Below are positions 22,314 to 56,450 of a DNA stretch of 64,000 bases, one piece after another. The stretch covers positions 1-64,000 of the forward strand of contig JAJZQO010000007.1 of the NCBI GenBank assembly GCA_021847575.1. The letters run 5' to 3'. The translations under genes and the position numbers were made by a program. Below the pieces are notes generated by a model. It had not been told where the DNA came from, searched no databases, and worked only from the letters and a program-made list of their open reading frames with translations. Every line of letters starts with the position of its first letter. Position 1 is the stretch's first letter. The DNA is from Bacillota bacterium (GTDB taxonomy: Bacteria > Bacillota > Sulfobacillia > JAJZYS01 > JAJYTV01).

Positions 22314-23483
22314 CTAGGACACCCTCGCGCCCACCCCGGGCGTGAGCCGCGCCGCCCGCAGGTAGGTCGTACCGTCGAGCAGCAGGCGGGCGGTGCGCAG
22401 ATAGCCGGCCCGCACGATCTCGATCTCCCGGCCCGCGACCCTGACCTCCACCTCCACCTCCATTCGCCCGCTGGGATGGCCGATGCGCAGGAGGGCGTCC
22501 TGCGCGGGGCGCGCCACCTCGTAGGCCACCGTACCCGGGATGCGGGCACCCACGGCGAGCGTGACGCTCGCCGCGCCGGGGAAGGCCTTGTGCAGCGTCA
22601 GCGGCTGACCGCCGTTGACCTGCGCCGCGATGTCCATCGCGTCCGCCGACACCTCGCCCGTGCCGACCACGAGCGGGTACTGGTGCGGCGCGGCCACCAG
22701 GATCGGGATCGGCGTGAGCCGGCCCTCGGGCACGCCGACGTGCCGCGCGACCGCGCGCTGCAGGAGATCCGTGCGCCGCAGGGCCTCCTCGTCCGGTGCC
22801 GAAGGCAGGCGCGCCGGGTCCAGGCCGAGTTCTTCGGCCCGCACCATGAAGCAGAGGTTCGCGATGTCGACGATCGACACCGTGACGGTGCCGAGCCCAT
22901 CCACCTGCAGGCGGTCCTGCACGTTGCCGGTGGGCAGGAGGCGACCGGTGGTGCTGCCCGCCGTCAGGCGGTAGTCCATGCGGACCCTGGCGCCTGTGCC
23001 GGGCACGCCGTCGATCGCGAGGTCTCCCTCGACGGCCGCGTGCCCGGCCACGACCGGCACATCCGAGAGCAGGACGGTCCTTGTGTTGTGGTTGTAGATG
23101 CGCACCTGCGTCCAAGGTTCGACCGCTGCCACGAGCCCCTTCTCGATCGCGTACACGCCCACGGCCGCCGAGATGTTGCCGCACAGCATGTCGAAGTGCA
23201 CCTGCGCGGTATGGGTCCCGACCTGCGCGAAGGTGTAGTCGATGTCGGCTCCAGGCACGGAAGGGGCGCCGACGATCGCCACCTTGCTCGTCAGAAGGTC
23301 TGCGCCGCCGAGACCGTCGATCTGCCTGGGATCGGGGCTGCCCATCAGCGCCAGGAGGAACTGTGCGCGCTCCGCCTCCCCGGCCGGCACCGCGGACTCC
23401 GGCAGGAACACGGCCTTGCTCGTACCGCCGCGCATGATGGTGCAGGGCACCGCGGTCATCTCCGTACCGTACGCGCTGCTCAT
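22314..23483 (-). CDS. PrpF-domain isomerase (2-methylaconitate/methylitaconate/oxalomesaconate isomerase-type)
   Basis: VPCTIMRGGTSKAVFLPESAVP, DPRQIDGLGGADLLTSKVAIV, DMLCGNISAAVGVYAIEKGLV. Confidence 0.87.
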   Translation of the reverse strand: MSSAYGTEMTAVPCTIMRGGTSKAVFLPESAVPAGEAERAQFLLALMGSPDPRQIDGLGGADLLTSKVAIVGAPSVPGADIDYTFAQVGTHTAQVHFDMLCGNISAAVGVYAIEKGLVAAVEPWTQVRIYNHNTRTVLLSDVPVVAGHAAVEGDLAIDGVPGTGARVRMDYRLTAGSTTGRLLPTGNVQDRLQVDGLGTVTVSIVDIANLCFMVRAEELGLDPARLPSAPDEEALRRTDLLQRAVARHVGVPEGRLTPIPILVAAPHQYPLVVGTGEVSADAMDIAAQVNGGQPLTLHKAFPGAASVTLAVGARIPGTVAYEVARPAQDALLRIGHPSGRMEVEVEVRVAGREIEIVRAGYLRTARLLLDGTTYLRAARLTPGVGARVS

Positions 23484-23502
23484 GACAGCCCCTCCCTATC
23501 GC

Positions 23503-24645
23503 CTACAGCGTCAGGATGTTGACGGTGCAGGCCGTGCCCTCGACACCGCGCGCCTTGCCGCCGCGGCAGTGCGCCAGCCCGACCTTCAGCCCCTGCACCT
23601 GGCGGTCGCCCGCCTCGCCGCGCAGCTGCTTGACGATCTCGATGACCTGCGCGACGCCTGTGGCGCCCAAGGGGTGCCCCTTGCCGAGCAGGCCGCCGCT
23701 CGTGTTCACCGGCAAACGGCCGCCGAGACTGGCCTCGCCGCGCTCCACGGCCTTCGGGTACTCGCCGAACGGGAAGAGGTGCAGCCCTTCGATGCGCGTC
23801 GTCTCCGCGATCGAGAAGCAGTCGTGCACCTCGGCCATCTGGATGTCCTCGGGCCCCAGCCCCGCCTGCTCGTACGCCGCGAGCGCCGTCCGCCAGGTCA
23901 GGTCCTCCCTGGTCATGTCGACGAGCCCAACCTCCATCCGCCCGCTGCGCAAGGCGGACGCCACAAGCCGCACGGTCCGCGCCTGGCCGAGCTGCCGGCG
24001 CTTCTTCTCGCTCACGAGCACGACGGCGGCCGCCCCGTCGGAGACGGGCGCGCACTCGTCGCGGTGCAGGGGTTCGGCGATCAACGGGCCCGCAAGGACC
24101 TCGTCCACGCTGATCGGCTTCTTGAACTGGGCGAGCGGGTTGAGCGAGGCGTTGAACTTGTTCTTGGCGGCGATCGCGGCGAGCTGGCGCGGCGTCGTGC
24201 CGTACTGCTCGAAGTGCCTGCGGGCCCGCATCGCGTAGACCGACGGCATGGTCAGCCCGATCTGCGCCTCGATATCGCTCTCGTCGGGCTGCAGCGCACC
24301 GCGGAACTTGGTCGAGAGGTGCTCGACGCCAACCGCCAGCACCATGTCGTAGGCGCCCGCCCGCAGCGCGGTCGCGGCCTCGAAGATCGCGGTCGAGCCG
24401 CTCGAGCAGGCGTTCTCCACGTTGGTGATCGGCAGGCCCGAGAGACCGGCCGCGCCGAGTGCGCGCTGGCCCATCGCCATGCCCTGGTAGACGTGTCCGA
24501 CCCATGCCGCCTCGATATCCATCGTGCCGACCCCGGCATCGTCCAGCGCGCCCAGGATCGCCTCCGCGGCGAGATCCGCCGCGGAGCGGTCCGGGTGCTT
24601 GCCGAACGCGGTCATGCCGACGCCGGCGATGTAGACGCCTTCCAT
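23503..24645 (-). CDS. thiolase family protein (acetyl-CoA acetyltransferase/lipid-transfer type)
   Basis: ITNVENACSSGSTAIFEAATALRAGAYDMVLAVGVEHLS, EVHDCFSIAE, VNTSGGLLGKGHPLGATGVAQV. Confidence 0.9.
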   Translation of the reverse strand: MEGVYIAGVGMTAFGKHPDRSAADLAAEAILGALDDAGVGTMDIEAAWVGHVYQGMAMGQRALGAAGLSGLPITNVENACSSGSTAIFEAATALRAGAYDMVLAVGVEHLSTKFRGALQPDESDIEAQIGLTMPSVYAMRARRHFEQYGTTPRQLAAIAAKNKFNASLNPLAQFKKPISVDEVLAGPLIAEPLHRDECAPVSDGAAAVVLVSEKKRRQLGQARTVRLVASALRSGRMEVGLVDMTREDLTWRTALAAYEQAGLGPEDIQMAEVHDCFSIAETTRIEGLHLFPFGEYPKAVERGEASLGGRLPVNTSGGLLGKGHPLGATGVAQVIEIVKQLRGEAGDRQVQGLKVGLAHCRGGKARGVEGTACTVNILTL

Positions 24646-24657
24646 CGCGCCGCCTCC

Positions 24658-25065
24658 TTACTTCTGGACGGGCCTGGCGTGGACGAGCGGCACGAGATTG
24701 CCTGCCTCGACGCGCGGGCCGTCTTCCATCGCGAGTTCGACCTTGTCCCCGATCTGCGGCTCCGCCGTGTCGGACAAGGGCATCAGTACCCGCACGTCCT
24801 GCGGGAAGTCGACATAGACGAGCACGTACGGCGGCTTGAACTCCGGCGTCGAGCGGTGCACGCGGCTCCAGGTGTAGACGGTGCCCTCGGGCCCGAGCAG
24901 GAGCTTATCCCCGCCCCGGTGGCCACAGCGCGCGCAGACGGCCTGCGGCGGGTAGAACGCGGCACCGCACTGCGGGCAGCTGCTGCCGACGAGGCACAGC
25001 CGCCCTCCCTCGTACTCGAAGACATCCGGGCCGTGGACCTCGGGTGCGCTCTTCATCTCCGACAC
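24658..25065 (-). CDS. Zn-ribbon / OB-fold (DUF35-type) acyl-CoA-associated protein
   Basis: LVGSSCPQCGAAFYPPQAVCARCGHRG zinc ribbon followed by GPEGTVYTWSRVH OB fold; partner of adjacent thiolase. Confidence 0.87.
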   Translation of the reverse strand: MSEMKSAPEVHGPDVFEYEGGRLCLVGSSCPQCGAAFYPPQAVCARCGHRGGDKLLLGPEGTVYTWSRVHRSTPEFKPPYVLVYVDFPQDVRVLMPLSDTAEPQIGDKVELAMEDGPRVEAGNLVPLVHARPVQK

Positions 25066-25097
25066 TCTGTCCCCTTCCTTCTCTGTGGCTGCAGCCG

Positions 25098-25847
25098 CTA
25101 GTAGGCTCCTACGCTGCGACCGCCGCAGACGTAGATGACCTGCCCGTTGATGTAGCCGGAGTCGTCGTCGGCGAAGAAGGCGACGGCATCGGCCACCTCC
25201 TCCGGTCTGCCGACGCGCTGCACCGGTACGGTCTTCGCCATGCGCTCCTGGTGTTCGGGCTTTAGGGCCCTGTAGAGCGGCGTGTCGATGAGGCCCGGCG
25301 CGACTGCGTTCGTCGTGATCTGGTAGCGCCCGCTCTCCAGCGCGAGCGTGCGCGTCAGGCTGACGATGCCGCCCTTCGACGCGCTGTAGTTGACCTGGCC
25401 GGCGCCGCCGAGCCAGGCGCGCGACGCGATGTTGACGATGCGGCCGTACTGCTTCTCGATCATCACGCGCGTCGCGGCACGCGCGAGCAGGAAGGCGGAC
25501 TTGAGGTTGACGCGGATGACGTCGTCGAACATCTCGTCGGTCATCTTCGTGAGATAGGCGTCCCTGGCGATGCCGGCGTTGTTCACGAGGATGTCGAGCG
25601 TGCCGAACGTCTTGACCGCGTGCTCGACCGCCGCGTCGGCCACCTCCGCCTGGGAGATGTCGCCGACGAACGCGGAAACCGTGAAGCCCTCCTGGCGCAG
25701 GGTCTGCTCGATCTCCTGCGCCCGCTCCGCGGCGACGTCGTTCAGCACGACCTTGGCCCCCGCCTGGCAGAGGCGCCTCGCGATCGCCGCCCCGATGCCC
25801 TGGCCGCTGCCGGTGACCAGTGCGACCCTCTGCTGCATGCCCTTCAT
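25098..25847 (-). CDS. SDR family oxidoreductase (FabG-like 3-hydroxyacyl-CoA dehydrogenase)
   Basis: VTGSGQGIGAAIARRL, NNAGIA, YSASKGGIVSLTRTLALE. Confidence 0.9.
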   Translation of the reverse strand: MKGMQQRVALVTGSGQGIGAAIARRLCQAGAKVVLNDVAAERAQEIEQTLRQEGFTVSAFVGDISQAEVADAAVEHAVKTFGTLDILVNNAGIARDAYLTKMTDEMFDDVIRVNLKSAFLLARAATRVMIEKQYGRIVNIASRAWLGGAGQVNYSASKGGIVSLTRTLALESGRYQITTNAVAPGLIDTPLYRALKPEHQERMAKTVPVQRVGRPEEVADAVAFFADDDSGYINGQVIYVCGGRSVGAY

Positions 25848-25866
25848 GCCGACCGCCCCTTTCCTG

Positions 25867-26649
25867 TCACTGTCCGGTGAACTGCGGCTCGCGCTTCTCG
25901 ACGAAGGCGCGCATGCCTTCCTCGCGATCGCGCGACTTGCGCAGGATCGCGTGGCTCTGCGCCTCGAACGCGAGCCCTGACGCGAGGTCGGTACTCTCCG
26001 CCACGTAAACGCACTGCTTGATCGCCGCGATGGAGAGCGGAGCCCGCTTCGCCATCGCCGCCGCCCACGCCAGGCTGGCCTCGTCGAGCTCGCCCTGCTC
26101 CACGACCTTCTCGACGAGTCCCCACTGCAGCGCCTGGTCGGCGCCGATGCGTTCCCCGGAGAACATCAGACTCATCGCCCTGCCTGGTCCGACCAGCCGC
26201 GGCAGGCGCTGCGTGCCGCCGGCGCCGGGCAGGCTGCCGACGTTCGCCTCAGGGAAGCCGAACTTCGCCGTGCGGTCTGCGATGCGCAGATCGCAGGCCA
26301 GGGCGAGCTCGAGGCCGCCGCCCAGCACGTAGCCGGCGAGCGCGGCGATCACGGGCTTCGACATGCTCTCGATGTAGGCAAAGAGCTCCCGGATGATCAC
26401 GCCCAGGGGATCCCGCAGGGCGCCCGCCTCGTACTCGGCGACCCGACCCTTGATGTCCGCCCCGACCGAGAACGCCTTCGGCTGCCCTGCCAGCACCACC
26501 GCCCGCACGTCGCCGTCGAGGTCTAGCTCGCCCAGCATGCGCCTGAGGTCCGCGAGCATCTCCGGCGTGAGCGCGTTCAGGGCCGACTCGCGGTTGATCC
26601 TGATGCGCGCCACCTTGTCGTGCCGCTCCAGCTGCAGGAGTTCGTCCAT
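25867..26649 (-). CDS. enoyl-CoA hydratase/isomerase family protein
   Basis: [58 protein letters not shown]. Confidence 0.9.
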
Positions 26650-26694
26650 CGCATTGGCCTCCTCAAGAGATTGCCTGCCTAAAGCGCAGGCGGA

Positions 26695-27933
26695 TCAGGA
26701 CCTGCCTTGCGCCTGCGCGGCCTCGTCCAGGTCCTGCGCCGCCCGCACGGCCCCGCGCTCGAGGAGGTCCCTGATCTCCTCCGGCGCGCAGCCGATCTCC
26801 ACCAGGATCTGCCGGCTGTGCTCCCCGACGAGCGGCGCCGGCCCGGCCGGCTGCGCGGGCGACTCGGCCAACAGCGCGGGCACCGCGACGCCTGGCACCG
26901 CGCCGAGCACAGGGTGCGTCAGCTGCGGGAAGCGCCCAGGGTTCATCACGTGCGGCAGGGCCGCGAGAGCGTCGAAGTCCAGCACCTGCGCGCAGAGGAT
27001 GTCCTCCCGCTCGAGGATCTCGACCCACTCGCCCGTGCTGCGCACGCGAAAGTACCCACTCAATGCCTCGTACAGCGCGGGGCGGTTCTCCACCCTGCTG
27101 GCGACGTCCTTGAAGCGGGGATCCGTCGCCAGGTCCGCTGCGCCCAGCAGGCGCGTGAGGCGAGCCCAGCGGTCAGGCCAGTAGGCGGCCACCATCAGGA
27201 AGCCGTCCTGCGTGGGGTAGACCTCGTTCGGCGCCGAGTAGGGGGCGGCGCTCCCCATGCGCCCTGGCGACTTGCCGCTCGCGAGGTACATCGACCAGGG
27301 CACGGTCTGGAAAAAAAGGAGGCTCTGCAGGAGCGAGACGTCCACGCGTTGCCCGCGGCCGGTCTGTGTCCTGTGCAACAGCGCCAGCAGGATGCCCTGC
27401 ACCGCGTTCATCGCGGCCACCATGTCCGCGGCCGGCACCCCGACCTTCACCGGCTGGCCGGCAGGCTCGCCGGTAATGCTCATCAGCCCGCTCATCGCCT
27501 GCACGATGCCGTCGACCCCTGGCTTGTCGCGCCAGGGCCCGTCCTGCCCGAAGGCGGTGATGGCGCAGTAGACGAGCTCCGGGTGCTCGCGCGAGAGTTC
27601 CTCGTAGCCGAGGCCGAGCCTGGCCATGACCCCTGGCCTGAAGCTCTCCAGGACGACATCGGCGCCCCGCGCCAGGCGGCGCACGATCTCGGGGCCCTCC
27701 GGCGACTTGAGGTTGACCGCGATCGAGCGCTTGTTGCGGTTCATGCCGAGGTATGCGGCGGCGTCCTCGCCGAGGAAGGGTGGGCCAAGCCTGCGGCCCC
27801 ACTCCCCCTCCGGCGGGTCCACCTTGGTCACCTTGGCACCGTAGTCGCCCAGGATCATCGCGGCCGTCGGGCCGGCCGCGCCCTGCGAGAGGTCGAGGAC
27901 GGTGATCCCCTCAAGGACCGACGGACTCGGCAT
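26695..27933 (-). CDS. class III CoA-transferase (CaiB/BaiF family)
   Basis: ITVLDLSQGAAGPTAAMILGDYGAKVTKVDPPEGEWGRR, NRNKRSIAVNLKSPEG, DVVLESFRPGVM. Confidence 0.92.
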   Translation of the reverse strand: MPSPSVLEGITVLDLSQGAAGPTAAMILGDYGAKVTKVDPPEGEWGRRLGPPFLGEDAAAYLGMNRNKRSIAVNLKSPEGPEIVRRLARGADVVLESFRPGVMARLGLGYEELSREHPELVYCAITAFGQDGPWRDKPGVDGIVQAMSGLMSITGEPAGQPVKVGVPAADMVAAMNAVQGILLALLHRTQTGRGQRVDVSLLQSLLFFQTVPWSMYLASGKSPGRMGSAAPYSAPNEVYPTQDGFLMVAAYWPDRWARLTRLLGAADLATDPRFKDVASRVENRPALYEALSGYFRVRSTGEWVEILEREDILCAQVLDFDALAALPHVMNPGRFPQLTHPVLGAVPGVAVPALLAESPAQPAGPAPLVGEHSRQILVEIGCAPEEIRDLLERGAVRAAQDLDEAAQAQGRS

Positions 27934-28477
27934 GCAGCGTCCCTCCCTGCGCCATGGCCATCAGCTCCCAGCCCCTGGCCACCGCGATCCGGTTCACGCC
28001 GCTGAACCCCTTGGGCGCCCGGCGCTGCGCCGCCTCCTGCAGAACCGCGCAGGGGATCCGCTCCAGCACGACGCCGACCGCGCCGAGCGCGAGCATGTTG
28101 GCGACGATCTTCTCCCTCAGCTCCAGGCGCGCCGTCCGCTCAAAGGGCAGCACCCAGGCGCTCTGGGGGGCGGCGACCCGCACGCGGTCCCTGTCCACGA
28201 TCGCGACGGCCTGCGCCTCCAGCTTGGGGCTGAAGCGGTCCCACGCCTTCTGGCTGAGCGCCAGCAGGACCTGCGGCGCAGCGAACCAGGGGTTGGCGAC
28301 CGGCTGGTCCGAGAGGGTGACGTCGGCGCGGCTGGCGCCGCCACGCGCCTCGGGTCCGTAGGACTGCATGATCGTGGCGTAGAGCCCGGCCTGCAGCGCG
28401 GCGTCGGCGAGCACCATCGCCGCCAGCCCCAAACCCTGTCCACCCGAGCCGGCGAGACGGATCTCCTTGCGCCACAT
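27911..28477 (-). CDS. 2-oxoacid:ferredoxin oxidoreductase, gamma subunit
   Basis: MWRKEIRLAGSGGQGLGLAAMVLADAALQAGLYATIMQSYGPEARGGASRADVTLSDQPV. Confidence 0.88.
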   Translation of the reverse strand: MWRKEIRLAGSGGQGLGLAAMVLADAALQAGLYATIMQSYGPEARGGASRADVTLSDQPVANPWFAAPQVLLALSQKAWDRFSPKLEAQAVAIVDRDRVRVAAPQSAWVLPFERTARLELREKIVANMLALGAVGVVLERIPCAVLQEAAQRRAPKGFSGVNRIAVARGWELMAMAQGGTLHAESVGP

Positions 28478-28479: not shown

Positions 28480-29316
28480 CTAGGTCTCCTTCCTCTTGTA
28501 GCCCGGTAGCCCGAGGGACTCCTCGAACGCCGGACGGCTGTCCTCGGACAGCACCCCGATCGGCTGCGTCTCCCGCACCTGCCAGCCCTCCCCGGGTCGC
28601 AGCGAAGGCCACTCGGAGAGGTCCCGCGAGACCTCCTCGTCGGAGCGGGATTGCGTGAACAGGAGGTCCGAGCCGCCGCCGAGGGAGTTCTTGCGCCCGA
28701 AGTACTCGGTGCAGTCGGTCATCACCTCGACGAACGAGAAGCCGCGGTGGTCGAGCGCCCTCTCGAGCACCTCCTCGAGCGCGTCCGGGCGGAAGGCCTG
28801 GCCGCGCCCGACGAAGGAGGCGCCGGCCGCAGTGGCCAAGGCGGCGGCGTCGAAGTGCGGTTCGGTGTTGCCGGCTGGGCTCGTCGTGGTGAAGGCCTCT
28901 CGCACGGTGGTCGGGGCGAGCTGGCCGCCCGTCATTCCGTACGTCTCGTTGTTGAAGAGAATGCAGGTGAGATCGATGTTGCGGCGCGCCGCGTGGATCA
29001 GGTGGTTGCCGCCGATGCCGAGGCCGTCCCCGTCGCCCGTGACCACGATCACCTTGAGCTCCGGGCGGGCCAGCTTGAGGCCGGACGCGAACGTCAGCGC
29101 GCGCCCGTGCGTGGTGTGCAGGGTATTGGCGTCGATGTAGCCGACAATGCGGCTCGAGCAGCCGATGCCCGCCACGAGCGCAACGTTGTTCAGGTTGTCG
29201 TAGCGCCTCGCGAGGACGCGCAGCATGGTGTTCATCACGATGCCGTGCCCGCAGCCCGGGCAAAGGATGTGCGGCATCATCTCCCGCCGCAGGAGTGCCT
29301 TCGCGGTCGTCGTCAT
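28480..29316 (-). CDS. 2-oxoacid:ferredoxin oxidoreductase, beta (TPP) subunit
   Basis: CPGCGHGIVMNTMLRVL, GIGCSSRIVGYIDANTLHTTHGRAL, VVTGDGDGLGIGGNHLIHAARRN. Confidence 0.9.
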   Translation of the reverse strand: MTTTAKALLRREMMPHILCPGCGHGIVMNTMLRVLARRYDNLNNVALVAGIGCSSRIVGYIDANTLHTTHGRALTFASGLKLARPELKVIVVTGDGDGLGIGGNHLIHAARRNIDLTCILFNNETYGMTGGQLAPTTVREAFTTTSPAGNTEPHFDAAALATAAGASFVGRGQAFRPDALEEVLERALDHRGFSFVEVMTDCTEYFGRKNSLGGGSDLLFTQSRSDEEVSRDLSEWPSLRPGEGWQVRETQPIGVLSEDSRPAFEESLGLPGYKRKET

Positions 29317-30455
29317 GAGGACTTCACGCTCCTCGGCTGGAGATCGGCGGCCGCCGCCAAGAGCTCGTCGGTCGTCACCGGCTCGCCGCCGCTCTTGCCG
29401 TGGCTCACGATGCGGATCGACCTGGGCAGGGCCCTGGCCACCACGTCGACCCACTGGCCACGGTTCAGCTCGGCCACCACAACCGTCTCCGCCCCGGCGA
29501 GATCCTCACGCAGCTGCGCGTCCGCCACGGGCCAGAGCACGCGCGGCCGGTAGAGCCCTGCCGCGACGCCCTCCTCGCGCAGGCGGTCCACCGCCTCGCG
29601 CGCGACGCGCGAGACGGCGCCGTACGCGACGAAGACGAAGCTCGCGTCTCCCAGGCGGTACTTCTCCGGCGGCAGCCAGAACGGCACCGGCGCCAGCTTG
29701 CGCTCGAGCCGCTCGAGGGTCTGCCGCACCAGCTCGGCGTTCGTCGAGGGGTAGCCCCGCTCGTCGTGGAAGAGGCCCGTCACATGGAAGCGGTAGCCGT
29801 CGCCGAAGCGGGGCATCTGCGCGACCCCCTCCTCGTTCGGGGCGTAGGCGCGATGGCCGGAGCCCGGCGGGCCCACGGGATCGGGGCGCCGCCAGATGTC
29901 CTCGGGCCTGGGTGGCACGAGCTCGACGCCCTCGCGCATGTGGCCGATGACCTCGTCGAACATCACGACGACGGGGGCGCGCAAGCGGTCCGCGATGTTG
30001 AAGGCCTGCACGGTGAGGTCGTAGACCTCCGCGACGGAGGCCGGGGCGAGCGCCAGGGCCGCCCTGTCGCCGTGCGAGCCCCAGCGCGCCTGCATCACGT
30101 CGCCCTGCGAGGGTGCCGTCGGCACGCCCGTGCTGGGGCCGACACGCATCACGTCGATCACGACGCAGGGGATCTCCGCGAGGCTCGCGTAGCCGAGGTG
30201 CTCCTGCATCAGGGTGAAGCCCGGGCCGGACGTCGCTGTCATCGCGCGCAGGCCACCGAGCGAGGCACCGATCACCGAGCCGAGCGAGGCCATCTCGTCC
30301 TCCATCTGGACGAAGACGCCGCCGGCGCGCGGCAAGCGCGACGACAGGATCTCGGCGATCTCGGACGACGGCGAGATCGGGTAGCCGCCGAAGAACTTGA
30401 GACCCGCCGCCAGGGCCCCGCGCGCGCACGCCTCGTTCCCTTGGATCAGTTCCAT
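29313..30455 (-). CDS. 2-oxoacid:ferredoxin oxidoreductase, alpha subunit
   Basis: MELIQGNEACARGALAAGLKFFGGYPISPSSEIAE, GPGFTLMQEHLGYASLAEIPCVVIDVMRVGPSTGVPTAPSQGDVMQARWG. Confidence 0.9.
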   Translation of the reverse strand: MELIQGNEACARGALAAGLKFFGGYPISPSSEIAEILSSRLPRAGGVFVQMEDEMASLGSVIGASLGGLRAMTATSGPGFTLMQEHLGYASLAEIPCVVIDVMRVGPSTGVPTAPSQGDVMQARWGSHGDRAALALAPASVAEVYDLTVQAFNIADRLRAPVVVMFDEVIGHMREGVELVPPRPEDIWRRPDPVGPPGSGHRAYAPNEEGVAQMPRFGDGYRFHVTGLFHDERGYPSTNAELVRQTLERLERKLAPVPFWLPPEKYRLGDASFVFVAYGAVSRVAREAVDRLREEGVAAGLYRPRVLWPVADAQLREDLAGAETVVVAELNRGQWVDVVARALPRSIRIVSHGKSGGEPVTTDELLAAAADLQPRSVKSS

Positions 30456-30456
30456 G

Positions 30457-31314
30457 TCACGCACCTCCCGCCAGGTGCAGGAGGTCGCTCTCCTGCTCAC
30501 GTACGACGTCGATGGCGAAGTCGGGGCACAGCTTCTCGCAAATCCGGCAGCCGGTGCAGCGCTCGGGCGCCGTCGGCCGCGCGATCTCCAGCGCGTCGAG
30601 CTGCCAGATCCGCTCCGGGCAGACGTCGACGCAGATGCTGCAGCCCTTGCACCACGCCTCCTCGAGCTGCAGCCTGAAGCGCGCCTGCTGCGTCGGGGAG
30701 CTGTGCAGGGGCTTCGGCGGTGCGGTGTCCTGCCAGGCGCGGCCGAGCTCGAAGGCCCGCAGGTTGGCCTCGAGCGCCTTCTTGGGCACCCAGCGCCCGA
30801 GCGCGTCGCGCCAGGCCGCGACGGGAAAGCCGAGCTCGGTCGAGAGCGCGCCGAGCAGCACGACGCCGGCCGTCTTGACGTTGCCTGCCTCTTTCGCCAG
30901 CGACTCCGCGTCGACCGCGCGCACTCTGGGATGCTCGAACGCGGCGAGCGGGTAGTTCACGCCGCCCGCGACGCGGTCCCGCTGCGCGGCCGGCGGCAGG
31001 ATGCGCTCAGAGCTTGCGAAGACGAGTCCGTCCGGTGCGAGCAGGGGCAGCCAGCGCAGGGCCTCCGCCCACTCGAAGCCGAGCACGTACTGCAGGCTGC
31101 CCTGCTCGATCACCACGTTGTGGACCTCCGGGCCGAAGCGCACCTGCGCCGAGACGGAGCCGCCGCGCTGCGACATGCCGTGGACCTCGGCCTTCTTGAC
31201 GTCCAGGCCGTGGCTGAGGCAGAGGTCTGCGATGATGTTGCCGGCCAGCACCACTCCCTGGCCGCCGACGCCGGCGATGACGACGTTCCCCTGCTGCGGC
31301 ACCTTGGCTTGCAT
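30457..31314 (-). CDS. indolepyruvate ferredoxin oxidoreductase beta-type subunit fused to a C-terminal KorD-like di-cluster ferredoxin domain
   Basis: GNVVIAGVGGQGVVLAGNIIADLCLSHGLDVKKAEVHGMSQRGGSVSAQVRFG, then CKGCSICVDVCPERIWQL...CTGCRICEKLCPDFAIDV; second ATG chosen because GGAGG spacing fits. Confidence 0.87.
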   Translation of the reverse strand: MQAKVPQQGNVVIAGVGGQGVVLAGNIIADLCLSHGLDVKKAEVHGMSQRGGSVSAQVRFGPEVHNVVIEQGSLQYVLGFEWAEALRWLPLLAPDGLVFASSERILPPAAQRDRVAGGVNYPLAAFEHPRVRAVDAESLAKEAGNVKTAGVVLLGALSTELGFPVAAWRDALGRWVPKKALEANLRAFELGRAWQDTAPPKPLHSSPTQQARFRLQLEEAWCKGCSICVDVCPERIWQLDALEIARPTAPERCTGCRICEKLCPDFAIDVVREQESDLLHLAGGA

Positions 31315-31336
31315 GGCCATCCTCCTTCCCACTGCC

Positions 31337-33133
31337 CTATCCCCGCGACGCCGGAGCGATGGCGAGGTGCGGGCAGATCTGGGCGCAGACCGTGCAGCCC
31401 GTGCACTGGTCGGGGTCGATGCGGACCCTGTGGCGGTTCTCGTAGGGCTCCGCCTCAAGGTCCCAGCCGAGGGCCGGGCAGCCCGTGTTCATGCACAGCT
31501 GGCAGCCGACGCAGCGCCCCGGGTCGATCTCGTAGCGCCGCCCGACGAGCTTGTCGGGCGCCTGCACGCAGGGCCGGCTCGTGATCACGACCGACACGCC
31601 GCGGCTGCGGGTGGCCGCGAGCAGGGTGCGGTGCACCGCGCCCACGTCGTAGGGGTCCACCGCCACGACCGGGTCCGCGCCGAGCGCCCGGCAGACCCCC
31701 GCCAGGTCGATGCGCGCGGTCTCCGTGCCGCGGACGTTCGCGCCGAACTCCACCGTCGGCTGGCCCCCGGTCATGGCGGCGACGCCGTTGTCGAGGATCA
31801 CGACGGTGAGGTCGGCCTGGTTCCAGACCGCGTCCGCCAGGGCGGGAACGCCGCCGTGCAGGAAGGTCGAGTCGCCGATCGCGGCGACGATCGGGTGCTG
31901 CTTGAGGCCTGCCTTCCACATGCCGACCGCCATGCCGATGCTCGATCCCATCGAGACGCAGGTGTCCATCGCGCGCAGCGGCTCCGAGGCGCCGAGCGTG
32001 TAGCAGCCGATGTCGCCGCTGACGTAGGCCTCGAGCTCCCGCAGGACCATGAACGGCGTCACGTGCGGGCAACCCGGGCAGAGCACGGGCGGGCGCGCGA
32101 CGGCCGCCGGCCAGTCCTGCGCGGCAGGAGCCTGCTGCGGCGCGAGGACGCCTGCGGCGATGAAGCCCTTGCGCACCAGCTCAGGGGTAAGCTCGCCGGC
32201 CTGCGGGAAGAAGGTCTTGCCCTCGACCGCCAGGCCGAGCGCCTTGACGGCGTCCTCGAGATAGGGGTCCGTCTCCTCCACGACGAACAGCCGGTCCACT
32301 TTGCCGGCGAAGGCGCGGATCCGCTCCTTGGGCAGGGGATGCGTGATGCCGAGCTTGAGCACGCTCGCATCGGGCAGCACCTCGCGCACGTGCTGGTAGG
32401 AGATGCTCGAGGTGATGACGCCGACTGCGGTGTCGCGCATCTCCTCGCGCGTGAAGGGGTGCTGCTCGCACCAGGCGGCGAGACGCCCAAGCCGCTCGAG
32501 CAGCCGCTCCCGGCCCATGCGGGCGTAGACCGGCAGCATGACGTACTTCGCGGGGTTGCGCTCGAAGCTGCGCTCACCCGGCGCCTCGGCGGCCGAGGGC
32601 AGAACGCGCGAGCGCGAATGCGAGACGCGCGTCGTCGTGCGCACGAGGCACGGCGTGTCGAACTGCTCGCTGACGCGGTATGCCTCGCGCATGAAGTCGT
32701 AGATCTCCTGGCTGTCGGACGGCTCGAACATCGGCACACCGGCAAACTTGCCGAGGTAGCGGCTGTCCTGCTCGTTCTGCGAGCTGTGCATGCCGGGGTC
32801 GTCCGCGCAGAGCAGGACGAGCCCGCCGTTGACGCCGACGAGCGGCGATGTCATCCAGGCGTCCATCGCCACGTTGAGGCCGACGTGCTTCATCGTCACC
32901 AGCACCCGCGCACCCGCCAGGGAGGCGCCGATGCCTTCGTCCAGGGCCACCTTCTCGTTGGTGGCCCACTGCACCTGAACCGACTCGGGCGCGATGCGGG
33001 CCATGTGCTCGATGATCTCCGTGGACGGGGTTCCGGGATAGCCTGTGGCCACCCGCACCCCTGCATGAAGCGCTCCCAACGCCACCGCCTCGTTGCCGAG
33101 CAGGAGCTGCTGGGTCGAGACCTCTGTCGCCAC
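31337..33133 (-). CDS. indolepyruvate ferredoxin oxidoreductase, alpha-type subunit
   Basis: LLLGNEAVALGALHAGVRVATGYPGTPSTEI, LCPGCPHVTPFMVLREL, GDSTFLHGGVPALADAVWNQ, C-terminal CVGCQLCMNTGCP and CTGCTVCAQICP. Confidence 0.92.
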   Translation of the reverse strand: MATEVSTQQLLLGNEAVALGALHAGVRVATGYPGTPSTEIIEHMARIAPESVQVQWATNEKVALDEGIGASLAGARVLVTMKHVGLNVAMDAWMTSPLVGVNGGLVLLCADDPGMHSSQNEQDSRYLGKFAGVPMFEPSDSQEIYDFMREAYRVSEQFDTPCLVRTTTRVSHSRSRVLPSAAEAPGERSFERNPAKYVMLPVYARMGRERLLERLGRLAAWCEQHPFTREEMRDTAVGVITSSISYQHVREVLPDASVLKLGITHPLPKERIRAFAGKVDRLFVVEETDPYLEDAVKALGLAVEGKTFFPQAGELTPELVRKGFIAAGVLAPQQAPAAQDWPAAVARPPVLCPGCPHVTPFMVLRELEAYVSGDIGCYTLGASEPLRAMDTCVSMGSSIGMAVGMWKAGLKQHPIVAAIGDSTFLHGGVPALADAVWNQADLTVVILDNGVAAMTGGQPTVEFGANVRGTETARIDLAGVCRALGADPVVAVDPYDVGAVHRTLLAATRSRGVSVVITSRPCVQAPDKLVGRRYEIDPGRCVGCQLCMNTGCPALGWDLEAEPYENRHRVRIDPDQCTGCTVCAQICPHLAIAPASRG

Positions 33134-33159
33134 GTTCTTCCCTCCCCGGTCCGCTCCGC

Positions 33160-34404
33160 CTAGACCGACGCGCTGTGCTGCAGCTGGCCGATCGTCGCCA
33201 GAATCTCCGCGTCCGTGAGGACGTGGTCGGTCGCCTTGGCCAGGCCCAGCACGGCCGCGAGCCGCTCCGGCGTGGCCTCGACGCCATGGTCCTTGAGCCA
33301 GAACTCGGCGTTCGAGCGACCGCTCATCGGGCCGATCTTGATCGCCTGCCGCCGGCCGACGAGCGCCGCCGGCACGGAGCTGTAGACCCGGTCCGCCAGC
33401 CACTGGTCGCCCTTCTGGTACGCCTTCGCGACGGCCGCCGCGTGTACGCCGGTGCTCGTGGCGAACGCGTCCTCGCCCATCACGGGGTAGTTGCGCGGCA
33501 GCTCGGAGCGCGTCATCTCGACGGCCAGGCGACAGTATTCGGCGAGCGTGCTGAGGTCCTGGTCGAGCCAGCCCAGCATCACGAGGTTGACGAGCACCGT
33601 GTCCATGGCCGCGTTGCCGACCCGCTCGCCGATGCCCGCCGCGCAGGCGTGCACGCGCGTGGCGCCCGCCGCCAGGGCGGCCAGGCTGTTGATCACGTCG
33701 AGGCCGCGGTCGCGGTGGCCGTGCCAGTCGATCTCCGGAGTGACGCCGCGGCGCTCCAGGCTCGCCTTGACGAACTGCACGAGCCGCTGCGTGCCGGACG
33801 GCGTCGCGTGGCCCACCGTGTCGGCGACGCAGAAGCGCTTCGCCCCCGCGTCCGCCGCCGCGCCATACATCGCCTCGATATCGGCCGGGCGGGCGCGGGT
33901 GGTGTCCTCCGTCACGAACATCACTTCGAGACCCTCGCGTGTCGCGAGGCCGACGGCCTCGTCGATGGTGTGCAGGAGCCGCTCCAGCGTCCAGCCCTCG
34001 ACCCACTGCCGGATCGGGCTGGAACCGATGAACAGGGCCGCCTGGATTGGCACGCCGGTTTCCTGCTGCGCGCGCACCATCGGCATGATGTCCGCCTGGT
34101 GCGTGCGCCCGGCGCAGTTGGGGCTGACCGGCAAGTGCTCGTCGCGGATCAGGCGGGCGAGGCGCACCACGTCGCCGTAGGCCTGCTCGCTCGCGCCGGG
34201 GTAGCCGATGTTGGCCGAACCGATGCCCAGGGCAGGCAAGAGGCGCACGAACGCCTCCTTCTCGGCGATCGTCGGCTGGCGCACGGACGGGCTCTGCAAC
34301 CCGTCGCGCAGCGTCTCGTCGTTCAGCTCGACGCGGCTCGGCCGCGTGAGGTCGGCGGTGAGCGGCTGGACCTCGTTCCAGTCGTGCAGCAGCGGCGATT
34401 CCAT
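33160..34404 (-). CDS. DRE-TIM metallolyase family protein (2-isopropylmalate/homocitrate synthase or HMG-CoA lyase-like)
   Basis: RVELNDETLRDGLQSPSV, CVADTVGHATPSGTQRLVQFV, DWHGHRDRGLDVINSLAALAAGATRVHACAAGIGERVGNA. Confidence 0.87.
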   Translation of the reverse strand: MESPLLHDWNEVQPLTADLTRPSRVELNDETLRDGLQSPSVRQPTIAEKEAFVRLLPALGIGSANIGYPGASEQAYGDVVRLARLIRDEHLPVSPNCAGRTHQADIMPMVRAQQETGVPIQAALFIGSSPIRQWVEGWTLERLLHTIDEAVGLATREGLEVMFVTEDTTRARPADIEAMYGAAADAGAKRFCVADTVGHATPSGTQRLVQFVKASLERRGVTPEIDWHGHRDRGLDVINSLAALAAGATRVHACAAGIGERVGNAAMDTVLVNLVMLGWLDQDLSTLAEYCRLAVEMTRSELPRNYPVMGEDAFATSTGVHAAAVAKAYQKGDQWLADRVYSSVPAALVGRRQAIKIGPMSGRSNAEFWLKDHGVEATPERLAAVLGLAKATDHVLTDAEILATIGQLQHSASV

Positions 34405-34426: not shown

Positions 34427-35713
34427 TCAGCGGGCGTAGGTGAGCTTGCGGCGGTCGACCACACGGACTGCCTTGCCCTCGCTGCGGGGAATGCTGAGCG
34501 GATCCATGACGGCAACCATGACGCTCACGCCGAGCACCTCGTTGAGCCTGCGCTGCACCGCCGCCGCCAGCACCCCGCGCTCGGCCTCGGTCTCGCGCGG
34601 CTCCACGTGGACCTCGAGCACGTCGAGCGCCTGGTGGCGGTCGAGCACGAGCTGGTAGACGGGCGCCAGGGCATCCATGTCGAGCAGCGCGGACTCCACG
34701 TCGCGCGGGAAGAGGTTCACGCCGCGCAGCGTGAACATGTCGTCGACGCGCCCGAGGATGTGGTCCATGCGCCGCGTCGTCCGGCCGCACTCGCAGCTGC
34801 CAGGGATGACGCGCGTGATGTCGCCTGTGCGGTAGCGCACGACGGGCGAGGCCTCGCGCCGCAAGGCGGTCAGCACGAGCTCGCCGAGCGTGCCGTCCGG
34901 GACCGGCTTGCCAGTCTGCGGATCGATGACTTCGAAGTAGAAGAGGTCTTCCGAGACGTGCAGGCCCTTGTGCCCCTCGGCGCATTCGCTCGCGACGCCC
35001 GGACCGATGATCTCCGCCAGGCCGTAGACGTCGAGCGCCGTGATGCCCATCTCGCTCTCGATCTCGTCGCACATCTGCTGCGACCAGGCCTCGGCGCCGA
35101 AGACGCCGACGCGCAGGCTCATCTCGTCCTTGGCCACGCCCATCTGCCGCATGACCTCTGCGATGTGCTGGCCGTAGGACGGTGTGCAGGTGAGGACCGT
35201 CGCCTTGAGGTCGCGCAGCATCGTCACCTGGCGCTGCGTCTGGCCGCCGGAGATGGGCAGGACCGTCACACCAGTCTCGAGTGCCGCGTAGTGGAAGCCG
35301 AGGCCGCCGGTGAAGAGGCCGTAGCCGTAGGCGTTGTGCACGATGTCGCCACGGTGCACGCCGGCCCGCTGCAGGACGCGCTTCATGGCCGTGCGCCAAA
35401 GCTGCAGGTCACTGGCGGTGTAGCCCGTGACTACGGCGGAGCCCGTCGTGCCGGAGGAGGCATGCAACTCCATGACATCCGTGAGCGGCACGCCGATCGC
35501 GCTGGGGTAGGGCTGTGCGCGCAGGTCCGCCTTGTTCGTCGTCGGCACCAGCGCGATGTCCTCCGGCGTCCGGATGGCGTCCGGGTCGACATCCCTCAGC
35601 CGTTCCGCGTAGAACGGCATGGTGCGCTTCACCCGCCGCACGGTCTCGCGGAACAGCTCGATCTCCTTGGCGGCCAGTTCGCTCTGCGGAACCCTCTCGT
35701 CGTCCCAGTCCAT
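34427..35713 (-). CDS. phenylacetate-CoA ligase family protein (PaaK-like)
   Basis: LHASSGTTGSAVVTGYTASDLQLW, NAYGYGLFTGGLGFHYAALETGVTVLPISGGQTQRQ, YRTGDITRVIPGSCECGRTTRRMDHILGRVDDMFTLRGVNLFP. Confidence 0.92.
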   Translation of the reverse strand: MDWDDERVPQSELAAKEIELFRETVRRVKRTMPFYAERLRDVDPDAIRTPEDIALVPTTNKADLRAQPYPSAIGVPLTDVMELHASSGTTGSAVVTGYTASDLQLWRTAMKRVLQRAGVHRGDIVHNAYGYGLFTGGLGFHYAALETGVTVLPISGGQTQRQVTMLRDLKATVLTCTPSYGQHIAEVMRQMGVAKDEMSLRVGVFGAEAWSQQMCDEIESEMGITALDVYGLAEIIGPGVASECAEGHKGLHVSEDLFYFEVIDPQTGKPVPDGTLGELVLTALRREASPVVRYRTGDITRVIPGSCECGRTTRRMDHILGRVDDMFTLRGVNLFPRDVESALLDMDALAPVYQLVLDRHQALDVLEVHVEPRETEAERGVLAAAVQRRLNEVLGVSVMVAVMDPLSIPRSEGKAVRVVDRRKLTYAR

Positions 35714-35733: not shown

Positions 35734-36255
35734 TCACTCGGCCGTCGACCCTTGGTCCGCGGCGATCGCGCGCAGCATCGGCACGATGCCTCCGCGCGCG
35801 AGGACCGCAAGCATCTCCGGCGGAATCCTTTCGGCCTGAAGGGCCGTCCCGTCGGAGCGAACCACCTCCCCCGCGACCACATCGACCGCGACTATCTCCC
35901 CGTCCTGGACAAGCCCGCCGACGCCCTGGCAGGTCAGAACGGGCAGTCCGATGGCGATGGCGTTGCGCGCGAAGATGCGCGCGAACGACTCCGCCACCAC
36001 GACCGCCACGCCGAGGTCCTTGAGGTGCTGCGGTGCGGATTCGCGACTCGACCCGACGCCGAAGTTGCGCCCGCCGACGACGATATCCCCGTGCCGCACC
36101 CCAGACGCGAAGTCCGGACGGACCGCCTCGAGCACGTGGCGCAGGCGCTCGGCCATGGGCGCGTGCACGTACGGGCCCGGCGAGAGGACGTCCGTCGAGA
36201 TGTTGTCGCCGAGCAGCCAGGCCCTGCCGCGCAGCACCGGGAACAGATCGCTCAT
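35734..36255 (-). CDS. 3-isopropylmalate dehydratase small subunit-like (LeuD/aconitase swivel domain)
   Basis: RAWLLGDNISTDVLSPGPYV, DIVVGGRNFGVGSSRESAPQHLKDLGVAVVVAESFARIFARNAIAIGLPVL. Confidence 0.9.
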   Translation of the reverse strand: MSDLFPVLRGRAWLLGDNISTDVLSPGPYVHAPMAERLRHVLEAVRPDFASGVRHGDIVVGGRNFGVGSSRESAPQHLKDLGVAVVVAESFARIFARNAIAIGLPVLTCQGVGGLVQDGEIVAVDVVAGEVVRSDGTALQAERIPPEMLAVLARGGIVPMLRAIAADQGSTAE

Positions 36256-37484
36256 GACGGCACCCCCTCGGCCGCAAGCCCTGCGAGCAAGGATCTGGGG
36301 TCCGCGATCTCGCCCGCGATCGCCGTCGCGGCAGCCGTGAGGGGCGACGCGAGGTAGATCTCGGCGTCCGGGCTGCCCATGCGCCCCTGGAAGTTGCGGT
36401 TGTGCGTGCCGAGACAGCGCTCTCCCGGCGCCAGGAGTCCGAGGTGGCCACCGAAGCAGGGGCCGCAGCTGGCCCCCTCCACGATCGCGCCTGCCGCGAC
36501 CAGGGCGTCCAGGATCCCTTCCTGCATCGCCTGCCGGTAGATCTCGCGCGAGGCCGGCGTGACGACGAGGCGCACTCCTGGTGCGATCTGCCTGCCCTGC
36601 AGCAGCGAGGCCGCGTCCCGCAGATCCTGCAGGCGCCCGTTGGTGCACGAGCCGATGAACACCTGGTCGATCCGCGTGCCGACCATCTCCTGGACCGGTC
36701 GCACGTTCTCGACGTGGTGCGGGCACGCAACCATCGGTTGCAGGCTGGAAAGGTCGACGCTGTAGCTGGCCGCGTAGGCCGCACCCTGCGGCAGGTCCTC
36801 GCCCGGCGGGAAGACGGCGAACTTCGAGCCCATCTCGACCCCCATGTTGCAGACCGTGAGCCTGTCGGCGAGGGTAAGGGACGAGGTGCCGGGACCGCGG
36901 AACTCGAGCGAGCGCGCCTGCGCGATGTCGGAACCGACGATGCGCATCAGGGCGAGGATCAGATCCTTGCCGGAGGTGGCGGGTGCAAGCCGCCCGCTCA
37001 GGCGGATCAGCACGCTCTCCGGCACCTTGAACCAGAGCGTGCCGGTCGCGAGCGCGTACGCCATCTCGGTCGAGCCGATGCCAGTGCTCAGCGCGCCTAC
37101 GCCGCCGTAGGTGGTGGTGTGGGAGTCGGTGGCGACGACGAGGTCGCCCTCGCGCACGCGCTTTTCCTCCACCATCACCTGGTGCGAGACGCCGCGCCCC
37201 ATCTCGTGGAAGTTCGCGATACCGTACCGCCGCGCGAGCTCGCGCGCCGTCCTCTGGTGGGCGGCTGCGGCCACCGAGGGCGGCGGCACCATGTGGTCGA
37301 AGACGACCGTCACCCGCGACGGGTCGTGCAGTTCCCTGATGCCCACCTCTGCCAACAGGCCGAGCACGTCCGCCGCGAAGATGTCGTGCATCATGAAGCC
37401 GTCCGGCCGCGCGACAACGTACTCGCCGGCCACTGCCTTCTCAAGTCCGGACTTCTTGGCCAGAATCTCCTCTGCCCAGGTCAC
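36252..37484 (-). CDS. 3-isopropylmalate dehydratase large subunit-like (LeuC/aconitase family)
   Basis: VATDSHTTTYGGVGALSTGIGSTEMAYALATG, FIGSCTNGRLQDLRDAASLLQG, GASCGPCFGGHLGLLAPGERCLGTHNRNFQGRMG. Confidence 0.92.
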   Translation of the reverse strand: MTWAEEILAKKSGLEKAVAGEYVVARPDGFMMHDIFAADVLGLLAEVGIRELHDPSRVTVVFDHMVPPPSVAAAAHQRTARELARRYGIANFHEMGRGVSHQVMVEEKRVREGDLVVATDSHTTTYGGVGALSTGIGSTEMAYALATGTLWFKVPESVLIRLSGRLAPATSGKDLILALMRIVGSDIAQARSLEFRGPGTSSLTLADRLTVCNMGVEMGSKFAVFPPGEDLPQGAAYAASYSVDLSSLQPMVACPHHVENVRPVQEMVGTRIDQVFIGSCTNGRLQDLRDAASLLQGRQIAPGVRLVVTPASREIYRQAMQEGILDALVAAGAIVEGASCGPCFGGHLGLLAPGERCLGTHNRNFQGRMGSPDAEIYLASPLTAAATAIAGEIADPRSLLAGLAAEGVPS

Positions 37485-38470
37485 AGCACTGGCTCCCTTC
37501 GCTCCATCTCCATGTCGCCGAGCGCCCGCACGACGAGACCGCGCACTGCGATCTGCCGCCCCGCGACGTTCAGCTGGCCGTTGTCGTAGGGGTGGACGGC
37601 CCGGCGGGCCAGGTCGCCCGCCGCGAGGATGCGCTCCTCGGACCACGCGCTGCCGTCGAGCAGGCTCTCCGCGGCCTGCACCCGGATCGGCGCGGGACCG
37701 ACGGCACTCACGACGACGACCGGCTCGCGCCAGGCGCCGTCGCGCCAGACGGCCGACACGGCCGCATTGGCCTCCGGAAAGTCGATGCTGGCCCTCGTCC
37801 GCCACTTGCGGAAGGCGGCCCGCGGCGGCGCGGCAGGTAGCCGCAGTGCGGCCAGGAACTCGCCCGGGGCAATGTGCAGATGATGCGTGCCATCGCCGGT
37901 GTAGATCTCCTCGATCGGCAGGCGGCGGGGCCTGCGGCCCCAGATCTCGGCCTCCGCCCGCAGCGCCACGAGCGCGGGCACCGTGTCTCCGGAGAGGATC
38001 GCGACGCAGGTCTCCTTGGCGGGCGCGGCGTGGCAGACCTCGCCGCCGCTCTGCCAGCAGGGCGCGAGCGCCTCCCGCCAGAGCGGCGGCTGGTTGCGGA
38101 AGCGGCAGCGCGTACCGAGGCAGACGTTGCCGCCGAGCGTCCCCTGCGCCCGGAGCTCCGGCGACCCGACCGCCTGGGCGGCATCCGCCAAGGCCGGATA
38201 ACCTACGCGGATGAGGGGGTGGCGCACGATGTCCGCGAGGGTCGCCATCGCGCCGATGCGCAGGCGGCCATCCTCCTCCGTCTCGATGCGCCGCAGCGCG
38301 TCGAGGCCGGCCAGGCTGACGAGCGTATCGCACGTGGGGATCTCCCAGGCGAGCCCCGGGATCAGGTCGCTGCCACCGGCCAGGACTGCCGCCCCCTCGG
38401 CGGCGAGCGCCGCCACGGTCTCCTCCGGCCGGGACGGCGTAGTGAGGCTGAGCGGACGCAAGGGCATCAT
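37481..38470 (-). CDS. hcrB: 4-hydroxybenzoyl-CoA reductase beta (FAD) subunit, with [4Fe-4S] insert
   Basis: FAD-binding GGSDLIPG, GTLGGNVCLGTRC; Cys-rich insert NVCLGTRCRFRNQPPLWREALAPCWQSGGEVCHAAPAKETC...GDTVPAL characteristic of 4-HBCR beta subunits. Confidence 0.85.
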   Translation of the reverse strand: MMPLRPLSLTTPSRPEETVAALAAEGAAVLAGGSDLIPGLAWEIPTCDTLVSLAGLDALRRIETEEDGRLRIGAMATLADIVRHPLIRVGYPALADAAQAVGSPELRAQGTLGGNVCLGTRCRFRNQPPLWREALAPCWQSGGEVCHAAPAKETCVAILSGDTVPALVALRAEAEIWGRRPRRLPIEEIYTGDGTHHLHIAPGEFLAALRLPAAPPRAAFRKWRTRASIDFPEANAAVSAVWRDGAWREPVVVVSAVGPAPIRVQAAESLLDGSAWSEERILAAGDLARRAVHPYDNGQLNVAGRQIAVRGLVVRALGDMEMERREPVL

Positions 38471-40770: not shown

Positions 40771-41281
40771 CGGGCGTCGCCTCCCCCATGCGGCCCGCCG
40801 CGAGCTCGACCGCATGGATGATCTGTTCGTAGCCGGTGCAGCGGCACAGATGACCGGAGAGCGCTTCCCGGATCTCCTCGCGCCCCGGCGCCGGCGTGTC
40901 GCGCAGCAGAGCCGCGCCCGCCATGAGCATGCCTGGCGTGCAGAAGCCGCATTGCACCGCGCCCGCCTCCACGGCAGCGGTCTGCAGCGGATGGAACGCC
41001 GCGGCTCCCTCTCCCGGGCGCTCCCTGCCCCACCAGCCGGCCAGCCCCTCGATCGTGACGACGTCGCGCCCCTCGACCGTCTTCGCCAGGGTGACGCACG
41101 ACAGCCGCGGCACCCCGTCGAGCCAAACGGTGCAGGTGCCGCAGCTGCCAACGGCACAGCCGTCCTTGGTGCCGTGCAGGTGGAGCTGCTCGCGCAGCAC
41201 CTCGAGCAGAGTCGCCTCGTCGCTCACCACAAGGTGGTGTTCACGTCCATTGACCCGTAGCCGCATGACCGATTCCGCCAT
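40760..41281 (-). CDS. hcrC: 2Fe-2S subunit of xanthine dehydrogenase family (4-hydroxybenzoyl-CoA reductase gamma-like)
   Basis: LHGTKDGCAVGSCGTCTVWLDG...QCGFCTPGMLMAGAALL...LSGHLCRCTGYEQI. Confidence 0.9.
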   Translation of the reverse strand: MAESVMRLRVNGREHHLVVSDEATLLEVLREQLHLHGTKDGCAVGSCGTCTVWLDGVPRLSCVTLAKTVEGRDVVTIEGLAGWWGRERPGEGAAAFHPLQTAAVEAGAVQCGFCTPGMLMAGAALLRDTPAPGREEIREALSGHLCRCTGYEQIIHAVELAAGRMGEATPDEA

Positions 41282-48834: not shown

Positions 48835-49503
48835 ATGAATTTGTCGATCGAACGTCCGATTGCCTCGGGGTCCAAGCAAGGGGGCGATGCGATGGCGGGC
48901 TTCGACCAGAGGCGTGAGCAGGTTCTCGACGGCTGTGCCCGCGCCTTTGCGCTCAAAGGCTACCAGGGGGCCTCCATCCGAGACATCGCGCGCGCGGTGC
49001 CGATGAGTGCGGGCGGCCTCTACCACTATTGCTCCAACAAACAGGAGTTCCTCTACCAGGTATGCGACAGGGCCTTCCACAGCCTGATCGAGCGCCTCAC
49101 GACGGGCCTCGACGGGATCGACGACCCGAGCGAGCGCGTGCACACCGTGTTCAAGTCGCATCTCGCCTACTTCCTCGAGCGTCCCGACGAGCTGATCACG
49201 CTCACGGAGGACCTGTCGTCGCTCGAGGCGCCGTGGGCTTCCCGCGTGCGCGTCCTGCAGCGCCAGTACTACGGCATCGTGTCCGACGTGCTCGCGCCGT
49301 TCGCAGTGCCAGGCGGGATCTCGCTGCGCGTCGCGACGATGAGCCTTTTCGGCATGATCAACTGGGTCCACACCTGGTACCGCCGCGGTGCCGACCCTGG
49401 CGCGGACGCTCTGGCGCGCCAGATGTCCGATCTCTTCCTGAGCGGCTTCGCTGCCGCGGCGCCGGAGACGGCGAGAAGTGTGCAAGGAGGTAGCGAACGG
49501 TGA
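48835..49503 (+). CDS. TetR/AcrR family transcriptional regulator
   Basis: RREQVLDGCARAFALKGYQGASIRDIARAVPMSAGGLYHYCSNKQEFLYQV; true start may be ATG 48892. Confidence 0.9.
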   Translation: MNLSIERPIASGSKQGGDAMAGFDQRREQVLDGCARAFALKGYQGASIRDIARAVPMSAGGLYHYCSNKQEFLYQVCDRAFHSLIERLTTGLDGIDDPSERVHTVFKSHLAYFLERPDELITLTEDLSSLEAPWASRVRVLQRQYYGIVSDVLAPFAVPGGISLRVATMSLFGMINWVHTWYRRGADPGADALARQMSDLFLSGFAAAAPETARSVQGGSER

Positions 49504-50264: not shown

Positions 50265-50307
50265 ACGAACGCGGCACGCACATCCGTCTGCTTGAGGAGG
50301 CATCACG

Positions 50308-52274: not shown

Positions 52275-52299
52275 GGTCCGAGCCAGAGGAGGGTTACCC

Positions 52300-53487: not shown

Positions 53488-53500
53488 GGAGGGGAGCACC

Positions 53501-54769: not shown

Positions 54770-54792
54770 GTCCGAGAGAGGGAGGGGATCGC

Positions 54793-55584: not shown

Positions 55585-55608
55585 ATGCGCAGCGAGGAGG
55601 ATGTCGAC

Positions 55609-56400: not shown

Positions 56401-56450
56401 GCATTGCACGTCGGCACCGATACGGGCCCGAGAGCGAGGTGGCAACGGAA

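Follow-up and report, generated by a model that had tools for sequence, protein, structure and literature searches.

A conserved iorB-korD gene fusion at the junction of two 2-oxoacid:ferredoxin oxidoreductase gene sets in uncultured bacteria

Introduction

In the stretch of DNA analysed here (64,000 nucleotides, hereafter called the window), genes for a putative indolepyruvate:ferredoxin oxidoreductase (IorAB) and a putative 2-oxoglutarate:ferredoxin oxidoreductase (KorABC) adjoin each other on the minus strand, in the order iorA-[iorB-korD]-korA-korB-korC. The open reading frame at the junction was originally predicted to be a fusion of IorB with a ferredoxin subunit of the KorD type. The locus raises the question of whether a subunit of one TPP enzyme really carries the delta subunit of another, and what such a join could be for.

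The two gene sets resemble known systems. IorA of the indolepyruvate:ferredoxin oxidoreductases likewise has pyrimidine, TPP and C-terminal di-cluster domains and is accompanied by an adjoining gamma-type IorB, but known IorBs stop at approximately 190-200 residues, whereas here KorD comes next. The order delta-alpha-beta-gamma is that of the KorDABC/OorDABC enzymes (structure 8ys5), in which delta is a di-[4Fe-4S] ferredoxin encoded directly ahead of alpha; here, however, delta is the tail of a subunit of another enzyme and not a separate protein. Fusions of the same building blocks are found in the gamma-alpha fusions (TIGR03710) and in single-chain pyruvate:ferredoxin oxidoreductase, and gamma-delta fusions also exist, but these all join subunits of one enzyme. 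Two enzymes of the superfamily also share an operon in the Thermococcales, where a gamma subunit is common to POR and VOR (PMC4058850) and the two co-purify in vivo, POR-VOR assemblies having been observed by affinity purification (PMC12016516). That sharing is non-covalent and each enzyme has its own delta, unlike the present case, in which delta is fused to a subunit of the other enzyme. Subunit shuffling is typical of the 2-oxoacid:ferredoxin oxidoreductases, and a join across two of them is a new form of it; the literature yielded no report of an IorB with a KorD, or of any fusion that spans two enzymes of this kind.

Results

The fusion gene and its neighbours

The fusion gene is a single open frame of 285 codons and a stop codon (Table 1), and an ATG two codons upstream, at 31320, is a possible alternative start giving 287 amino acids. 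Pfam places the POR domain (PF01558) at residues 17-192 and two Fer4 repeats at approximately residues 218-268, and the cluster motif quoted in the original prediction is found exactly in the protein (CKGCSICVDVCP...CTGCRICEKLCP). The top NCBIfam match of the N-terminal part is indolepyruvate oxidoreductase subunit beta, with 184.4 bits against a cut-off of 237, and because this cut-off is not reached the part is called IorB-like; it has the gamma-type POR domain and lies beside iorA, which ends 22 bases upstream.

The spacings between iorA, iorB-korD, korA, korB and korC are 22, 1, -4 and 2 bases, the ATG of korA lying one base past the stop codon of the fusion gene, so a single transcript is likely. 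KorA passes the cut-off of the 2-oxoacid:acceptor oxidoreductase alpha subunit, KorB does not reach its own (265 bits, cut-off 364), and the scores of most Ior and Kor subunits, including those of the Ior subunits with TIGR03336 and TIGR03334, are below the curated equivalog cut-offs. PDB relatives are chains A, B and D of 8ys5. Identification of Kor as a phenylglyoxylate dehydrogenase was rejected, as the PadG and PadI models score far below the 2-oxoglutarate models. IorA has its own C-terminal di-cluster ferredoxin domain (approximately 31358-31522), with all cysteines present. The KorA motif GYPISP, present in 8/8 fusion genomes, is GYPITP in five other KorAs when read by eye, and the sequence difference may point to an altered substrate choice.

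Table 1 Features of the fusion locus and of the aromatic gene cluster in the window
Feature	Position	Strand	Remarks
iorB-korD fusion gene	30457..31314	-	285 aa; intact in 8 genomes
IorB (gamma-type, PF01558) part, residues 1-195	30730..31314	-	Pfam POR 127 bits
Linker, residues 196-214 (19 residues)	30673..30729	-	Unconserved; length similar among orthologues
KorD-type di-[4Fe-4S] domain, residues 215-271	30502..30672	-	KorD HMM; 8 cysteines
iorA	31337..33133	-	598 aa; TIGR03336 641.6 bits, cut-off 650.9
korA	29313..30455	-	NF006412 481.9 bits, cut-off 411 exceeded
korB	28480..29316	-	TPP-binding; CPGCG, GIGC and TDC, the cysteines expected for an own [4Fe-4S] cluster
korC (gamma)	27911..28477	-	PF01558 91.7 bits
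Isopropylmalate/homocitrate synthase-like (LeuA family)	33160..34404	-	Member of conserved cluster
PaaK-like arylacetate-CoA ligase	34427..35713	-	TIGR02155 472 bits, cut-off 646 not reached
LeuD-like and LeuC-like dehydratase/isomerase subunits	35734..37484	-	TIGR02087, NF001614 above cut-off
4-Hydroxybenzoyl-CoA reductase-like subunits	37481..41230	-	
PrpF family; BbsB-like thiolase; BbsA-like DUF35; SDR; enoyl-CoA hydratase; CaiB-type CoA-transferase	22314..27933	-	Collinear in relatives
Benzoyl-CoA-pathway-like genes: two crotonase-family, Had-like dehydrogenase, class I benzoyl-CoA-reductase-like subunits, ferredoxin	49503..56696	+	

Identity of the C-terminal domain

KorA loci were sampled from the class (30, consisting of that of the window and 29 others). 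As had been assumed, korD is normally a separate gene ahead of korA: 26 of the 29 other loci have a separate two-cluster ORF directly before korA, ending near the korA start, in most cases with an overlap of a few bases. An HMM was built on 27 separate KorDs, the 26 from these loci and the KorD of contig C58. The fused domains score 71-79 bits with this model, whereas the two controls, IorA's internal ferredoxin domain and the ferredoxin encoded alongside the benzoyl-CoA reductase genes, reach approximately 22 bits. This agrees with the predicted KorD type; these scores rule out that the fused domain is a copy of IorA's own ferredoxin. The best NCBIfam matches of the fused domain, OGOR_delta (43.1 bits, cut-off 125) and OorD (42.3 bits, cut-off 93), do not reach the equivalog cut-offs. 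The domain is encoded directly upstream of korA and, judged by its sequence, it is a KorD.

A second Kor operon in the window genome (L061, contig C58) has a normal, separate korD ahead of its korA, and a GltD-like oxidoreductase is encoded upstream of it. A search of the window genome (G000) gave no other clear KorD, so the check for a separate korD, proposed with the original prediction, found none that serves the fusion operon.

A rival reading gives the additional ferredoxin domain a role in IorAB alone, as one more relay or docking point, with KorABC working without a delta subunit. Two-subunit KorAB enzymes lacking delta do exist. KorAB types are listed in PMC11304471. Together with the cluster cysteines of KorB, the existence of such enzymes means that KorABC might do without the domain, which moreover belongs covalently to an Ior subunit; in addition, 3/29 KorA loci are without an adjacent KorD. 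The sequence of the domain is nevertheless that of a KorD, it stands at the korD position, and in the surveyed genomes it was found solely alongside korABC. The domain appears to be needed more by KorABC, since two clusters are already present in IorA and KorABC would otherwise be without a delta subunit. Service to IorAB only is for these reasons considered unlikely.

Distribution, origin and selection

The intact fusion frame is present in eight genomes of two orders, i.e. in the window genome and in seven others; the gene order in the window is as originally described. In the window's order it is found in 3/15 genomes: that of the window and two, at 82% identity, that belong to a sister genus. 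It is absent from five genomes of the genus to which the window belongs. In the second order, reached via locus L008, it is found in 5/42 genomes (60-67% identity), and all IorBs found there are fused.

A survey of 399 genomes of the phylum gave an IorB-like match in 246. Among the matches listed, all but the window's own stop before the KorD part, the few that run further doing so solely by reading through stop codons. In another phylum, IorB was found in 85/198 and 125/297 genomes (overlapping samples), with the KorD tail absent among the matches listed. In loci L097-L100, from another phylum, a PaaK-like gene directly follows iorA-iorB. Viral contigs gave no relative whatsoever. A stand-alone IorAB with the same tail, which the original prediction had named as the refuting case, was sought in four surveys and was absent among the matches listed, and a widespread IorB tail can be ruled out within these four genome surveys and the plasmids.

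The named carriers are metagenome assemblies, in which a frameshift, a misassembly or a chance ORF could imitate a fusion. The identical fused frame is intact in seven genomes besides that of the window, which argues that it is not an assembly artefact; conserved frames in eight separate assemblies, with both domains under purifying selection, refute a chance ORF as well and make any such artefact hardly credible.

The gene order iorA-[iorB-korD]-korA-korB-korC, with near-zero spacing, is the same in 8/8 fusion genomes. IorB-D could also be a gamma-delta subunit common to both enzymes, like the Por/VorG of the Thermococcales; subunit sharing is known (PMC4058850). A full separate korC is nonetheless retained in all eight genomes, and since Kor consequently needs no borrowed gamma, a common subunit appears improbable, even though a gamma domain with delta behind it is a natural arrangement in the superfamily.

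In the IorB and KorA trees alike, the fused proteins group into a single clade (SH-aLRT 100 each), showing that iorB and the korD directly ahead of korA fused once. A KorD is missing beside the KorA that is closest in the tree (L079), which counts against the tether proposed below. In another locus (L059), iorA-iorB is followed by unfused gamma, ferredoxin and alpha-like genes of another oxidoreductase, and adjacent operons of this kind are a possible forerunner of such fusions.

The IorB part and the KorD part both have a dN/dS of approximately 0.10-0.13 when the window is compared with its closest relatives (82% identity), whereas in the linker dN is about equal to dS or exceeds it in most pairs. 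All eight cluster cysteines are retained in 8/8 fusion genomes. The fusion product, with two conserved domains and a variable linker, is kept under selection.

A further explanation is that the fusion just secures co-synthesis or a 1:1 dosage, the domains acting apart or the linker being cut. The genes are translationally packed, and the linker, besides being variable, has a low-confidence prediction: the single-chain structure model of the fusion protein, derived from four sequences, is poor (pLDDT 58), with pLDDT below 50 at residues 202-224. The fusion has, however, been kept despite divergence to 60% identity, with fission in 0/8 genomes, and the window gene has no in-frame ATG, GTG or TTG from codon 176 to the first cluster cysteine (codon 222). 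A KorD-sized product thus cannot start within its linker, and a free KorD from an internal start was rejected for this gene. The linkers of the relatives in the second order do contain in-frame GTG, TTG and ATG codons, without a clear ribosome site, which would still allow an internal start there. Overall, a role in co-synthesis or dosage only is judged to be quite unlikely.

The surrounding aromatic gene cluster

The fusion gene is part of a cluster of approximately 20 kb (22314-41230, minus strand), which is collinear in the eight genomes of the two orders as far as the contigs reach (L101-L106, L007). It runs from the 4-hydroxybenzoyl-CoA reductase-like genes through LeuC/LeuD-like, PaaK-like and LeuA-like synthase genes to iorA, iorB-D, korABC and CaiB, and continues with genes for a hydratase, an SDR, a DUF35 protein, a thiolase, PrpF and a transporter (MFS). 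In one relative (L106, 10787-10799) the thiolase-like gene matches as two pieces, probably because of a small frameshift in that assembly. The family matches of the cluster are mostly under the curated cut-offs. Amidohydro_2 (PF04909) genes of near-equal length (17016-17852 and 57813-58646, both on the minus strand) flank the aromatic locus at both ends.

The LeuA-like protein is similar to synthases of homocitrate and isopropylmalate. In the phylum, outside the window genome, only proteins of approximately 40% identity were found, with LeuC-like neighbours and without ior or kor; a 43% identical protein of a Streptomyces plasmid has aconitase- and IPMDH-type genes as neighbours, apparently within a secondary-metabolite cluster. 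Neither BbsG, which catalyses the dehydrogenase step, nor a LeuB-type dehydrogenase was seen within the cluster, and this fits a pathway that is entered at the unsaturated acid. The gene content makes it possible that the cluster encodes the conversion of arylacetate or arylpyruvate into benzoyl-CoA via benzylmalate and benzylidenesuccinate.

The families and gene order expected for a class I reductase (BcrB/BcrC- and BcrA/BcrD-type, Had/Oah) are present on the plus strand, all with scores below the equivalog cut-offs. The four reductase-like subunits at 52300-56400 are under both the Bcr and the Bzd cut-offs, and the set includes two short BcrAD-type ATPases; it is possibly a distinct subtype.

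The suggested link to benzoyl-CoA reduction gained support from co-occurrence. A reductase-like subunit was found in 6/8 fusion genomes (that of the window itself and five more with 78-88% identity) and in 0/12 compared genomes without the fusion, giving a Fisher p of 0.0007, which overstates the evidence because the genomes are kin and not independent. In three relatives the gene is on the fusion contig, approximately 22-23 kb from the fusion as in the window, and the contigs of G472 and G490 end short of this position. The carriers form a small group of uncultured bacteria with genes for anaerobic aromatic breakdown.

Discussion

The most likely explanation of the fusion, favoured here with some reservation, is that it acts as a covalent tether which joins Kor and Ior so that electrons are shared locally. 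Two conserved domains connected by a free linker fit a tether. IorB would keep its place as gamma-type subunit in IorAB. The KorD domain would bind to KorAB in the way that delta docks in 2-oxoglutarate oxidoreductases. Each KorABC unit would then be bound covalently to one IorAB unit at a constant ratio of 1:1, and the KorD clusters would come to lie close to IorA's ferredoxin domain. The low-potential electrons shared locally by the two TPP enzymes could load the ferredoxin that supplies the benzoyl-CoA reductase, whose genes lie 23 kb away, or could pass from enzyme to enzyme. The original prediction took the first view, with both enzymes oxidising their substrates and pooling the electrons. 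Electron supply to benzoyl-CoA reductase by 2-oxoglutarate:ferredoxin oxidoreductase is established for Thauera aromatica (PMC6500515, citing Dorner and Boll 2002).

The gene content also allows the hypothesis that Ior runs in reverse, as a reductive carboxylation driven by Kor, in which case the tether would be an internal wire and not a common outlet. Kor would oxidise 2-oxoglutarate and pass two electrons via the KorD domain straight to IorAB, which would carboxylate arylacetyl-CoA, formed by the PaaK-like ligase, to arylpyruvate. Net, 2-oxoglutarate and arylacetyl-CoA would give succinyl-CoA and arylpyruvate without free ferredoxin. The LeuA-like synthase would add acetyl-CoA to form 2-benzylmalate, and the LeuCD- and PrpF-like enzymes would convert this to benzylidenesuccinate. 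In phenylalanine and tyrosine homologation, HphA is known to act as 2-benzylmalate synthase together with the isomerase HphCD (PMC12961565). CaiB, the hydratase, the SDR and the BbsAB-like thiolase would then yield benzoyl-CoA and succinyl-CoA, an acyl-CoA dehydrogenase being unnecessary, and Hcr and benzoyl-CoA reductase would act next. This internal circuit from arylacetyl-CoA through arylpyruvate to benzoyl-CoA, drawn from gene content, is a speculative and rather doubtful reading.

Electrons are usually pictured as passing from 2-oxoacid:ferredoxin oxidoreductases to each other, or to acceptors that strictly require a low potential, such as benzoyl-CoA reductase, by free diffusion of ferredoxin, and a conserved covalent join of two of these oxidoreductases would give direct genetic evidence of channelling. 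From the conserved cluster one would predict that arylacetates or aromatic amino acids are converted to benzoyl-CoA, by a route of which no description was found in the literature. If the internal circuit were true, these bacteria would have a new anaerobic arylacetate pathway together with a new kind of coupled TPP-enzyme complex.
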